This document shows, piece after piece, positions 4,353 to 24,554 of a stretch of DNA of 25,119 bases. The DNA comes from a virus: positions 1 through 25,119 of the IMG/VR virus record IMGVR_UViG_3300032311_000507; one strand, given 5' to 3'. Position numbers and translations under genes: made by a program. The notes beneath the pieces are model-generated. The model saw only the letters and a program-made list of their open reading frames with translations. It was not told the DNA's origin and made no database searches. Numbering within the stretch: position 1 is the first letter of the stretch; each line of letters opens with the position of its first letter.

Positions 4353-5096
4353 ATGAAGCATAATGCTAAAAAAATAGGGGATGTCTGGAGATTAGAACCA
4401 CCAGAAGTAGTAAAGGAATACCTGTGTCAATGCGATAAGATAGGAATGCCTGCAGTATCCCCATACAACATACTCGAAATTAGTGAAGAGCAAGTGGCCC
4501 AAGCAAAAATCCTTCCAAATCGGTGGTCAATAATAAATATACTTGCTGGAATGAATAAAGAGTTGAGAGTTATGGAAGTCGGTACTGCTGCTGGAGATTA
4601 TGCCCAAGCCCTTGTTGATGGTCTTAAACTTAATAAGTTAGTACTTATAGATACTTTTGATAATCCAGATATGATGCCAAATTCAGAAAACAGATATGAT
4701 GCCAATAGCAACTACTCTTTTGTTTGTGAAAGATTTAAAAATAATCCAGAAGTTGAAATTAGAAAAGGAAAATCTGAAACACTTCTTCCAGAGTATATAC
4801 CATCAAACATTGTTGATAAATTTGATTTTATATATTTAGACTCTGATCATTCTTTTCATAATGTATACAATGAATTGCTATATGCTTCTCAAATAGTAAA
4901 GCCTTACGGAATTATTGGAATTGATGATTTTTCAACTGCTCCAGATGACCCAATACATCCTTATGAAGTTATGCAGGCAGTGACTACATTCTTACAAGTA
5001 AACAAAGAGTGGAAAGTTAGATTCTTTTCGTTTGGAACAGAAAGTCTACAAAATATTTATATATCTAGAATTTTTGATTCAGAGACTAATGCCTAG
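4353..5096 (+). CDS. Class I SAM-dependent methyltransferase
   Basis: A 247-residue protein from the ATG of MKHNAKK; a start 39 bases upstream would overlap the divergent gene's start and bypass the promoter. Motif I is VMEVGTAAGDY (73-83), Asp100 (LVLIDTF) is the SAM-ribose acid, FDFIYLDSDHSF (157-168) is motif IV and IGIDDF (188-193) ends the core. LDSDHS and a following acidic ID-D-F are typical of Methyltransf_24 proteins, which include sugar O-methyltransferases. Its last 11 bases overlap the convergent CDGSH gene. Substrate unknown. Confidence 0.8.
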   Translation: MKHNAKKIGDVWRLEPPEVVKEYLCQCDKIGMPAVSPYNILEISEEQVAQAKILPNRWSIINILAGMNKELRVMEVGTAAGDYAQALVDGLKLNKLVLIDTFDNPDMMPNSENRYDANSNYSFVCERFKNNPEVEIRKGKSETLLPEYIPSNIVDKFDFIYLDSDHSFHNVYNELLYASQIVKPYGIIGIDDFSTAPDDPIHPYEVMQAVTTFLQVNKEWKVRFFSFGTESLQNIYISRIFDSETNA

Positions 5097-5304
5097 AGTG
5101 TGACCCATCACACCAGGGTCCTCTTGCTGACTGACCACATACACAGTTTTTCTTTTCTTTAACATTTGTGGCAGGCAAAACCTTAACTGTATTGTCTCTC
5201 ATCTCAAGTTCATATGAATCTTCAAGGATCTTCAAAACTTTTGCTGGCTGTAAGTCATATTCCTCAATGCCAATTACCTGTACATAGTTGTTAACTTTAA
5301 TCAT
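5086..5304 (-). CDS. CDGSH-type iron-sulfur protein
   Basis: A 72-residue protein. The C-terminal segment fits the CDGSH consensus exactly (C-x-C-x2-S-x3-P-x-C-D-G-S-H): CVCGQSARGPWCDGSH, with Cys54, Cys56, Cys65 and His69 as the 3-Cys/1-His ligands of a [2Fe-2S] cluster. Residues 1-48 look like a small beta-barrel (NNYVQVIGIEE...AKVLKIL...YELEM), perhaps KOW/SH3-like. CDGSH domains act in redox, iron or cluster handling; a phage-borne copy may serve the neighbouring iron oxygenases, but that is inference. A structured leader and its own promoter lie upstream. Confidence 0.85.
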   Translation of the reverse strand: MIKVNNYVQVIGIEEYDLQPAKVLKILEDSYELEMRDNTVKVLPATNVKEKKNCVCGQSARGPWCDGSHSRH

Positions 5305-5450
5305 TGCTCTCCATTGTTAGTAAATGAGCAGTTTATAGACGACTGCTCAGGTCTATCAGCCACGGGTTTCAGCCTGCTGACTGTCTTTTCATCGACCATC
5401 CGTTTAGAAAATCCTTGCGGACCAACCGATCACGGAATACATCAATTATA
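5305..5450 (-). promoter_or_regulatory. Promoter and structured 5' leader of the CDGSH gene
   Basis: On the minus strand a TATAAT (plus 5445-5450) immediately follows the hsp20 stop, leaving about 130 bases before the CDGSH ATG, unusual in this compact genome. The leader contains a perfect 8-bp hairpin, TGAGCAGT with ACTGCTCA (plus 5325-5332 and 5342-5349), a GTCC-GCAA-GGAT stem with a GNRA tetraloop, and GTCAGC/GCTGAT enclosed by GGTC/GACC. A 12-codon ORF starts within the -10/TSS region and is probably not translated. No known riboswitch class was recognised. Confidence 0.45.
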
Positions 5451-5879
5451 CTACAAAATAGTTATTGACTTTGGCTTTTTCTCTTCTGGAACATTTCTTA
5501 CTACATCGATGTGCAGCATTCCATCTTTGAGTTCAGCCGAAGATACTTCCATATATTCTCCAAGTGCAAATGATCGTACAAATTTACGAGTTGCAATGCC
5601 CTTGTGAACTACCTCTGCATCTGTTACCTCAATGATTTCCCCTTGGATAATGAGGCTGCCATTATCTACTGAAACATTAATATGTTCCTTTGAAAAACCA
5701 GCCACTGCAATCGAAAGCCTGAATGTATCTTCATCTAGTTTAAGAAGATCATAAGGTGGGTATGATTGTGAGTTTGTTTTGTGTGCTGTGTTAAGACGGC
5801 CTAACTCTCTGTTAAAGCCAATAAAAAATGGATCATTAAATAGATCCATTGCGAAGTTTGTTGCATGTGTTGCGTTCAT
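5451..5879 (-). CDS. Small heat-shock protein (Hsp20/IbpA family)
   Basis: A 142-residue protein of normal length for the family. The N-terminal arm contains FIGFNRELGRL, the alpha-crystallin domain runs about 41-133 (YDLLKLDEDTFRLSIAVAGFSKEHINVSVDNGSLIIQG, then RKFVRSFALGEYMEVSSAELKDGMLHIDV), and the tail KKPKSITIL supplies an I-x-I-like oligomer motif. It is an ATP-independent holdase that limits aggregation. Phages carry Hsp20 proteins as assembly or stress helpers. A GAAAGGGGAA ribosome site precedes the ATG, and the promoter is an ATGACA-N17-TATAAT shared with a divergent gene. Confidence 0.93.
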   Translation of the reverse strand: MNATHATNFAMDLFNDPFFIGFNRELGRLNTAHKTNSQSYPPYDLLKLDEDTFRLSIAVAGFSKEHINVSVDNGSLIIQGEIIEVTDAEVVHKGIATRKFVRSFALGEYMEVSSAELKDGMLHIDVVRNVPEEKKPKSITIL

Positions 5880-6109: not shown

Positions 6110-6725
6110 TGCATACCCACATGCGGGGGTAGAACAGTTTTATTCTTTACTTGCTTCAACAATTAGAGCAGATAGAACTGAGAATATGAATGAACTTGCT
6201 GAAGGCAGTGAGTGGATCATATGGAAGAAAGAGCCAGTCATTTCTTTGGGTAACTATGGAGAAGACGTAACTCTATGTACAATAATTAGAGAGCCAGCAG
6301 AAAACATTGCAATCAATGTTTGTGGTTGGTTCACTGGCAAAACAGGACAAATTATATACGGCAGTGAAGTAATGAAAAAAGAAAACATTAAAGAAGAGTT
6401 AGTCCTTTCTGAAAAAGATATTAAGTTTATTAATCATCAAATGATGGTTTATAAATCATATATGATGTGTGCAACTTTAAACAAAGATCTTAAAGTATTT
6501 TCTACTGATCAAATGAAAAGTGATCCAGTTAAAACTGTTGGAAGTATTTTAGATATTTCTGGCAGCAAACATAAAAGAGACTTTGGCAATGCAATTATTA
6601 AACGTGGGTTTAATGATGATGAAGTAAATAAAGATCACTATGACATGGTTGTTTCATACATACAGTCAACTGAACAATATCAAGAAATATTAGGACTATA
6701 CAATACATTACTTGAAAGAGTTTAA
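6093..6725 (+). CDS. Sulfotransferase-like P-loop protein (divergent), copy 1
   Basis: A 210-residue protein from the ATG of MKILINAYPHAG. The N-terminal strand followed by YPHAGVEQFYSLL occupies the place of the sulfotransferase PAPS loop (PRTGSxxL), and TLCTIIREPAENIAI resembles the 3'-phosphate-binding segment (V-x-RDP-x-D-x-x-x-S), with Arg kept and Asp replaced by Glu. Layout, length and C-terminal LGLYNTLLERV match three other genes here (9436, 10163, 13870). Loss of the canonical P-loop basic residue makes activity doubtful. The ATG lies inside the end of the preceding gene. Confidence 0.5.
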   Translation: MKILINAYPHAGVEQFYSLLASTIRADRTENMNELAEGSEWIIWKKEPVISLGNYGEDVTLCTIIREPAENIAINVCGWFTGKTGQIIYGSEVMKKENIKEELVLSEKDIKFINHQMMVYKSYMMCATLNKDLKVFSTDQMKSDPVKTVGSILDISGSKHKRDFGNAIIKRGFNDDEVNKDHYDMVVSYIQSTEQYQEILGLYNTLLERV

Positions 6726-18749: not shown

Positions 18750-18782
18750 GAAGCAGTTTTAATTCATGCTTAGGAATTTTTT
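18750..18782. repeat. Conserved hairpin element, copy H2
   Basis: Plus strand AAGCA-GTTTTAATTCA-TGCTT-AGG then a T-run. One of five related hairpins (5325, 18750, 20096, 20648, 24519) with covarying stem pairs (AAGCA/TGCTT against GAGCA/TGCTC). Directly follows the DUF932 stop on the minus strand. May act as a terminator or processing signal. Confidence 0.6.
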
Positions 18783-19806: not shown

Positions 19807-20141
19807 GAGTTTCCTTCTTTCTGTTGTTGTTATTTTAAGTATAACAGGGTGGGCTGACATATGCAAATCCAGATAGTTAAACATGGGGCAAATCGGACAT
19901 TTCTTAAAGGTGTCGTAAATCACACGGCGTGTCGCTTGACAAGATCAAAAAAATGGGGCCGAGGAAATTTTCGAGTGATGATGTGCCCTGTTGCTTATAG
20001 ATACACCTTCTGTGTAACTCCAGGTATTCTTATTCTTACGAGATAAGCACCCACTTACTCTAACACATCACCACTCTAATAAGTGGGAATAATAAAAGCA
20101 GTTTTAAAACATGCTTAGGTTTTTAGTTTAGTAGCCCCCTA
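19807..20141. promoter_or_regulatory. 335-base intergenic module: promoter, CRP/GlxR-like site, hairpins
   Basis: From left: minus-strand promoter TGTCAG-N10-TATACT (plus 19838-19859); palindrome-like GGTGT-N6-TCACA (19909-19924); GGCGTGTCG (19926-19934); plus-strand TTGACA (19935-19940 region); GCCGAGG box (19958-19964); TACAC-CTTCT-GTGTA stem; CCCACTTA-N22-TAAGTGGG stem (20050-20087); hairpin element AAGCA...TGCTT (20096-20116) with T-run. No credible gene. It may hold a plus-strand RNA of about 150 bases. Confidence 0.55.
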
Positions 20142-20573
20142 CTAAATATCCACTCTATCAATTGAGGATGACAACCACGAAATGTTATCTGAATCATATT
20201 GAACAGTATCAAAATCGATATCGTGAATTGCATTAGTTGCTGCTTCTTCATTACGTGCATTGACTGTCACTGAATAAAGAACTGTAACTTCAACTTCGAA
20301 TTCTTTTGTTAATTCAAAGCCCATAATCTCAGCAATTTCTTCTGCCTGTGATTCTGTAATTTGGTCATTCTCAAGTGCTTCAAGCGTCCACTCTTGCATG
20401 CCCTCAACCATACGGTTACGTTCCGCTGAATCAGCATATGAGCGCTGAGTTACTTTCTGAATGTGCTCTTCCAATTGATTAATACGTTCCTTGTTGGCAA
20501 CGAGTGTGGTCTCAAGAAATTCTCTTGTCATGTAGTGATTGTCTGTAGGTGTTACGGTTATTGGCTGGTCCAT
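20142..20573 (-). CDS. Unknown phage protein with coiled-coil N-terminus (143 aa)
   Basis: Residues 17-49 are a coiled-coil-like helix (LETTLVANKERINQLEEHIQKV). ALENDQITESQAEEIAEIMGF (71-91) and the strand EFEVEVTVLYSVTV follow, then an acidic tail. I recall similar ORFs in actinobacteriophages, but no function. The ATG is preceded by GAAAGAGGC. The promoter is TTGACA-N18-TACAAT with TGTCAG inside. Confidence 0.7.
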   Translation of the reverse strand: MDQPITVTPTDNHYMTREFLETTLVANKERINQLEEHIQKVTQRSYADSAERNRMVEGMQEWTLEALENDQITESQAEEIAEIMGFELTKEFEVEVTVLYSVTVNARNEEAATNAIHDIDFDTVQYDSDNISWLSSSIDRVDI

Positions 20574-20647: not shown

Positions 20648-20671
20648 GAGCAGTTTTGGATCATACTCAGG
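20648..20671. repeat. Degenerate hairpin element, copy H4
   Basis: GAGCAGTTTTGGATCATACTCAGG matches the plus-strand hairpin copy at 24519 at most positions, but the stem has one mismatch and there is no T-run, so it may be decaying. Confidence 0.5.
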
Positions 20672-20778
20672 ATGTGCACTTCTTACAGGCTGTGCCACCT
20701 GTTTCGCAATTTAAGTATATGCGAGATACGCTCTATAGTATTTCTGTGATCGCCCTAATCAGCCTGGCGAATTGGAGT

Positions 20779-24275: not shown

Positions 24276-24554
24276 TTGCCAACCTCTTTCTTTTTGTTGA
24301 TAATTCTATCCTATCACGGGTGGCTGACATTTTCGGTTAGACACGCCGTAAGTAATAGACTTTCTTTTTATTTCCTTACTATGTAAGTCTATCTGATTAG
24401 TCTAAAAATATCAACTTACTAGCCAGTAATTCCAGATAATGAGACGCTCAAAGGATGTGAGAAAAATCACATAGTACGTAAACGCATACGACACGCCCGA
24501 CTGCGCCGAGGAAAATTTTGAGCAGTTTTAGATCTTGCTCAGGATTTTTTTGCG
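24276..24554. promoter_or_regulatory. Intergenic module with palindrome, CCGAG box and hairpin
   Basis: Contains TGTCAG-N10-TAGGAT (24308-24329), GACACGCC (24340-24347), TGTGA-GAAAAA-TCACA (24456-24471), CGACACGCC (24489-24497), GCCGAGG (24505-24511) and hairpin TGAGCA...TGCTCA (24519-24541) with a T-run. No gene. Confidence 0.55.

Follow-up and report, generated by a model that had tools for sequence, protein, structure and literature searches.

A small phage RNA ending in a 27-nucleotide pseudoknot that recurs behind genes of many phages

What occupies the 146-nucleotide (nt) gap between an hsp20 gene and a gene for a CDGSH iron–sulfur protein in the IMG/VR virus record IMGVR_UViG_3300032311_000507? 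The gap spans positions 5305–5450 (minus strand) of the 25,119-nt stretch of DNA analysed here (the window), and separates hsp20 (5451–5879, minus strand; Pfam HSP20, 6e-18; phrog_432) from the downstream CDGSH open reading frame (ORF; 5086–5304, minus strand; Pfam zf-CDGSH, 6.2e-07). An initial annotation had regarded it as an exceptionally long, structured leader of the CDGSH gene that might sense iron or redox state. Comparison with related loci shows instead that the gap encodes a small structured phage RNA, called class A here: a promoter-like box is followed by about 116 nt whose predicted fold has three or four hairpins and, at its 3′ end, an H-type pseudoknot. By the same comparative approach, this 27-nt pseudoknot (the knot) is found to be a repeated module located just behind stop codons in many phages. 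Positions and gap lengths that depend on ORFs come from our own ORF caller rather than from an annotation.

The class A small RNA

The folding energy of the gap is unremarkable (minus strand z = −0.92, with 37 of 200 shuffled sequences folding as well; plus strand z = −1.30), and therefore the case for an RNA rests on comparison. The CDGSH protein, used as a query, returned six viral loci with the same leader, and a 27-base core of this leader matched 11 stretches, whose alignment places the RNA ahead of hsp20, Dps or other ORFs, or has it extend into opposite-strand genes. An hsp20 alignment added 80 loci, about twenty of which contain the RNA; these are the best 80 of 583 relatives and thus do not form a random sample. 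Loci were recruited partly through hsp20 or through the knot pattern described below; the samples are not independent, and numbers of sequences do not translate into numbers of events.

A covariance model (R1) built from an alignment of 30 distinct members matches the window RNA (5323–5438, minus strand, with a predicted start near 5438) at 114.7 bits. Over 97 viral loci the model yields 37 matches of 100.4–135.1 bits, with the next match at 33.8 bits, and among 20 whole records six contain a single match above 100 bits, with nothing else scoring above 37 bits. A body-plus-knot pattern had 0 matches in bacterial genomes, and blastn of the leader against named phages returned nothing useful.

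Directly upstream of the RNA is the sequence TAGTATAAT (5445–5453, minus strand), a predicted promoter −10 region whose TAG is also the hsp20 stop codon. The same box immediately precedes 34 of the 37 members; of the others, two carry a related box and the third lacks one. At the other end, sequence similarity among the loci stops after the last stem, with unrelated sequence beyond. Another same-strand ORF follows in 19 members (HNH-like, PstS-like, hsp20, Dps and others), an opposing-strand gene in seven and no ORF within reach in two, whereas a CDGSH gene lies within 700 nt in only nine (directly after the RNA in seven, at 244 nt in two); the PstS-like, Dps and CDGSH neighbours were assigned by Pfam. 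The promoter-like box and the RNA thus stay joined while both flanks change, indicating that the unit, predicted to be transcribed, is the box plus the RNA. Several neighbours are iron proteins (CDGSH, Dps/ferritin and 2OG-Fe(II) oxygenases), which counts for little because the oxygenases also occur elsewhere in these phages. At one locus (L015, minus strand, near 6616) the RNA comes directly after the hsp20 5′ leader, an arrangement that loss of the hsp20 ORF would produce.

Pairing within the RNA body is highly conserved. P1 (5399–5436, minus strand; UCCG 5436–5433 with CGGA 5402–5399) is paired in 30 of 30 distinct members and never varies. It encloses P1b (5423–5419 with 5414–5410), the GNRA-capped stem GGUCC-GCAA-GGAUU that had already been recognized; the GNRA loop is restricted to the subgroup of the window, and the P1b pair types differ between subgroups as judged by eye in a poorly aligned region. 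P2 (5383–5396, minus strand) is a GUC/GAC hairpin whose outer pair is CG in 22, GC in 5 and UA in 3 of the 30 members. P3 (5355–5381, minus strand) pairs GUCAGC 5381–5376 with GCUGAU 5360–5355, again as first described, and contains an inner P3b; its third pair is UA in 16, CG in 13 and UG in one. A T-loop-like reading of P3b was rejected, as short variants (judged by eye) break it. Compensatory changes are present in P2 and P3. Across 21 tested pairs in the 30 members, all 630 cells hold standard pairs and 21 cells are changed on both sides, giving a covariation of 0.115 compared with 0.058 in shuffles, although 15 of the 21 pairs are invariant and thus uninformative, as is the first stem of the knot within class A.

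These data sort the structural proposals of the initial annotation. Its expectation of a conserved structured RNA is borne out by the 37 members, their uniform pairing and the covariation of the knot. Its impression that the RNA belongs to no known riboswitch class also stands: Rfam at the gathering score finds only the five tRNA genes in the window, and a permissive scan of the gap gives only sub-threshold snoRNA noise. The stem GGTC/GACC that was thought to close P3, by contrast, breaks in 25 of 30 members and could form in only five. Its GTC (present in 5 members, replaced by CTC or TTC in 25) pairs locally with GAC in P2, and GACC belongs to the knot. Nor is the length of the leader exceptional, since our ORF list leaves 20 gaps longer than 60 nt in the window, several of them above 146 nt.

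An H-type pseudoknot with a variable first stem

The 8-base-pair (bp) hairpin TGAGCAGT/ACTGCTCA noted at the end of the RNA is present, but what had been seen was the terminal hairpin only and not the pseudoknot that contains it. In the window the knot (5326–5356, minus strand) consists of stem S1 (AUAGAC 5356–5351 with GUCUAU 5340–5335), loop L1 (CU), stem S2 (GAGCA 5348–5344 with UGCUC 5330–5326) and a loop L3 ending in AAAC. The outer two S1 bases overlap P3, and therefore at most four S1 pairs can coexist with that stem. Outside class A the knot stands alone or behind other RNA modules.

A descriptor of the knot (at least four S1 pairs, CU, a five-pair S2, the S1 partner, a loop ending in AAA plus one base, and the S2 partner) was matched 78 times in 588,659 bases and not once in a single first-order Markov control. 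With a pattern that is blind to S1, 11 of 12 related records yielded 46 copies between them and a backward control none, and a single related phage record can hold up to seven copies. S2 pairing is partly built into this search pattern, whereas S1 pairing is not.

Among 137 distinct 27-mers gathered with the S1-blind pattern, 110 form four, 26 form three and one forms one of the four S1 pairs. Paired cells amount to 97.5% compared with 78.6% in shuffled sequences, and all four Watson–Crick pair types occur at two positions. Covariation reaches 0.526 versus 0.168 in shuffles, with none of 500 shuffles as high, and shifting the pairing partner by 1–3 columns reduces pairing to 26.7–41.2%. In a separate S1-blind set, 125 of 137 sequences form at least three Watson–Crick pairs, compared with 15, 14 and 18 in three re-dealings of the halves. 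The two interleaved helices of an H-type pseudoknot are thus supported by covariation. Whereas S1 varies freely, S2 (GAGYA/URCUC) and L3 (AAAC) are conserved in sequence.

The initial annotation had also placed the hairpin in a family of repeats. No further instance of the 25-mer itself occurs in the window, even with up to three mismatches, but the knot containing the hairpin stem occurs five times by the S1-blind pattern, always on the minus strand. The second copy (18751–18778) begins 5 nt after the stop codon of a DUF932 gene and ends 3 nt before a tRNA-Asp gene. The third (20096–20123) follows a 143-amino-acid (aa) ORF, the fourth (20648–20674) a 140-aa ORF and the fifth (24520–24546) lies just after a 62-aa ORF; the last two have an S1 of only 3 bp. 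None of these three ORFs matches a PHROGs family, and the 143- and 140-aa ORFs match no Pfam family. The DUF932 protein matches 522 phage records, and the window probably derives from an actinobacterial phage because the best of these matches are Streptomyces phages (48–52% identity).

Two further conserved sequences adjoin knots of the window. The hairpin TTTAGTAGGGGGCTACTAA lies between the knot and the preceding stop codon, which it overlaps, at 20124–20146 (minus strand) and at L113, L115, L118, L119, L258, L293 and L323. The stretch CGCCAGGCTGATTAGGGCGATCA.AGAAATACTATAGAGC occurs near a knot in two phages, at about 20730–20770 (minus strand) of the window and at L335.

Location and spread of the knot

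Loci that repeat a contig already represented (L001, L010, L013, L019–L021 and L023) were left out before the knots were counted, both here and for the 78 copies above, and 208 intergenic contexts of the knot were compared. A same-strand feature lies upstream in 185 and downstream in 170. In same-strand gaps with 100–800 spare bases, the knot is closer to the upstream stop codon in 59 of 73 cases, with median distances of 18 nt to the stop and 158 nt to the following start. S1 never begins less than 5 nt from the upstream stop, and begins 5–9 nt from it in 52 of 101 cases. When small-RNA types are set aside and only ORFs of at least 100 aa are considered, seven contexts are convergent and three divergent, two of the latter (L024 and L097) resembling artefacts of ORF calling over hsp20. 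UGA is strongly under-used as the stop codon before knots in viral loci (3 of 101, compared with 563 of 2,567).

The features that follow the knot include candidate sites of RNA processing. A tRNA gene is the next feature in 23 of the 208 contexts, and in 17 of these it is tRNA-Asp, located 3–13 nt beyond the knot. Hammerhead-like motifs occur within 90 nt beyond the knot in 4 of 258 contexts, compared with 10 of 7,300 random places. One of these hammerheads, of type III and from a Polynucleobacter contig, reaches the Rfam gathering score, and by the usual rules its cleavage site would fall about 6 nt beyond the knot.

The knot is not confined to phages of Actinobacteria. Among the matches listed from S1-blind scans, 98 of 119 viral loci and 25 of 119 bacterial loci contain the full knot; most of the 119 bacterial stretches are chance matches, and some of the 25 passing loci lie inside ORFs. 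The bacterial 27-mers among these listed matches form at least three S1 pairs in 28 of 32 cases, and some bacterial copies appear, by eye, to reside in capsid operons of prophages. In the sequenced Lactobacillus phages jlb1, Lj771, KC5a and AQ113, the knot has the head protease or minor head region on one side and the scaffold gene on the other. Lactobacillus phage loci L375–L378, L271 and L342 carry a second conserved element (CTTTTTGTATGCC..TATGAG..CTCGTA) behind the knot and before the scaffold gene. Comparison of the L164 region with phages gave nothing useful.

Class A is also not the only RNA that ends in this structure. A second RNA type, which like class A begins with ATTCCG but has a different body and a knot at its end, is found mostly after hsp20 (L056, L065, L072, L073, L091 and L092), scoring 29–34 bits with the class A model. 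Further bodies precede the same knot at L040 and L096, and at L043, L080 and L103 (TCTGCACC..GGGGAGTCGCAGA; GTCGGGGGAGACAGCGAC). Because such RNA types replace class A in related phages, we suspect that the class A body (P1–P3) is a trans-acting accessory RNA. A conserved structured RNA without a knot, GTCCCTACACAGGACCTTAG...CCTGTGTAGGGC, is present at L030, L032, L044, L062, L081, L101 and L102, and behind class A at L059, L069 and L078. It often precedes a small HNH-like ORF (so judged by eye; the only Pfam match was unrelated and below threshold), and the two are possibly a HEARO-like pair. These loci point to a hot spot behind phage hsp20, at which one small RNA gene is exchanged for another.

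A possible role at RNA 3′ ends

The explanation we favour is that the knot is a 3′-end module that caps or protects phage RNAs, a function to which we assign a probability of roughly 0.45. It is suggested by the location of the knot right behind stop codons, by the convergent cases and by the cutters (tRNA, hammerhead) immediately beyond; position alone is compatible with a block to 3′ exonucleases. The module would form or guard the 3′ ends of phage RNAs in the following manner. Just beyond the knot, the RNA would be ended by a terminator or cut by RNase P (where a tRNA follows), by a hammerhead ribozyme or by some other nuclease, and the compact fold, with one or two L1 nucleotides across S2 and an A-rich L3 across S1, would halt 3′-to-5′ exonucleases. 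In class A, the knot would stabilize the small RNA, and where a CDGSH gene directly follows, the class A promoter may drive that gene too. REP elements and similar 3′ stem-loops block exonucleases as simple hairpins; the role proposed for the knot is the same, but it is a pseudoknot with conserved loops.

Several observations weigh against protection of 3′ ends. The knot is closer to the downstream start in 14 of the 73 long same-strand gaps, and loci such as L024 place it between a TATAAT sequence and a ribosome-binding site, as in a 5′ element. One of the 12 related records (G007) lacks the knot by the strict pattern, and Streptomyces phage Braelyn, a distant relative of 131 kb, has 0 knots by either the strict or the looser descriptor. 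Furthermore, S2 and L3 are conserved beyond the needs of a roadblock, which suggests a specific partner.

Such a partner could be a phage or host protein, or RNA polymerase, that binds the knot as an operator and controls decay, translation or termination, with the copies constituting a regulon. This arrangement would fit the sequence conservation of S2 and L3 alongside a freely varying S1, and also the several copies per genome. RNA polymerase binds put-type antiterminator RNAs in this way, the nascent RNA acting on the polymerase. We nevertheless judge an operator unlikely, if the most serious competitor, as the position of the knot is tied to the upstream stop rather than to the start codon, and no candidate protein was found, although none was sought. 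A phage precedent exists in the T4/T2 gene 32 operator, which according to excerpts of PMC3014915 is a single pseudoknot in the 5′ leader of the gene for a single-stranded-DNA-binding protein and is bound by gp32. The two elements share an H-type pseudoknot in phage mRNA; unlike the gene 32 operator as there described, the knot recurs behind the stops of unrelated genes and mostly sits nearer these stops than a 5′ leader would.

Transcription termination at the S2 hairpin appears improbable. Knots do lie behind stop codons, some class A members end T-rich, and five consecutive T residues occur within 20 nt of 32 of 229 copies, compared with 64 of 1,076 background places. However, an intrinsic terminator has a GC-rich hairpin with a U-tract right after it, most copies have no U-tract, and a listing of terminator-like sites includes none in 5305–5450. 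Transcription must pass the 17 knots that precede tRNA-Asp because 3–13 nt leave no room for a promoter, and therefore a terminator cannot explain these copies; termination was rejected as the general role. In the Lactobacillus phages, capsid scaffold genes likewise follow the knot without a promoter evident by eye.

A decoy or antitoxin-like RNA, mimicking ToxI to counter type III toxin–antitoxin defence, is less plausible still. The topology of the knot is similar to that of ToxI. Both are small pseudoknot RNAs relevant to phages, ToxI being 36 nt long and open to mimicry by a phage (excerpts of PMC3475682), and variable RNA types do share one locus here. However, ToxI is described in those excerpts as repeated and accompanied by a toxin partner, whereas the knots are single and scattered behind genes rather than in tandem beside a toxin gene, none having been identified among neighbour proteins that were searched in part.

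The iron- or redox-sensing riboregulator proposed at the outset is very improbable: the RNA directly precedes CDGSH in the window and at the six loci found with that protein, but for 28 of the 37 members no CDGSH gene lies within 700 nt, and a leader could not control an opposite-strand gene, which excludes this role for the seven that face one. Recoding, in which a knot behind the stop would promote readthrough or frameshifting, is scarcely credible despite the frequent 5–9-nt spacing, as there is no extended frame (the next in-frame stop comes after a median of 7 codons, compared with 8 in the background) and UGA is rare before knots.

Both H-type pseudoknots and small RNAs of phages are familiar elements, whereas this knot family and its placement are, as far as our searches show, undescribed. 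Rfam searches of the window and 42 further loci gave only tRNAs and one hammerhead, with 0 matches in the two-knot region of L276, and no description was found in the open-licence PMC literature, which is not proof of absence. The nearest relatives differ, judging from excerpts of their sources. The STAXI motif (RF01728; PMC2864571) is likewise a simple pseudoknot of unassigned role, but it requires two or more tandem pseudoknots, whereas knot copies are mostly single and have no Rfam match. Prophage hammerhead ribozymes process phage intergenic RNA (PMC3088659) and at a few loci follow the knot directly, but the knot itself has no hammerhead core. GOLLD and ROOL are phage-encoded structured RNAs, often near tRNAs and with no assigned role (PMC12286853), but they exceed 600 nt and form cages, and neither matches at knot loci in Rfam.

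In its broadest form, which we offer only tentatively, this model extends to many tailed phages, among them those of Actinobacteria and Lactobacillales. A single 27-nt pseudoknot, the bacterial-virus equivalent of exonuclease-resistant RNA, would tag the 3′ ends of both their mRNAs and their small RNAs; its exposure would follow from termination or from cleavage by RNase P or a hammerhead, and class A would be one of a set of interchangeable small RNAs ending in it. The recurrence of the knot behind genes suggests that these viruses share a means, seemingly not described before, of completing or protecting the ends of their RNAs. If the knot does guard RNA 3′ ends, it would help to explain how phages control transcript stability in long operons, and may offer a 27-nt tag for stabilizing RNA in bacteria.
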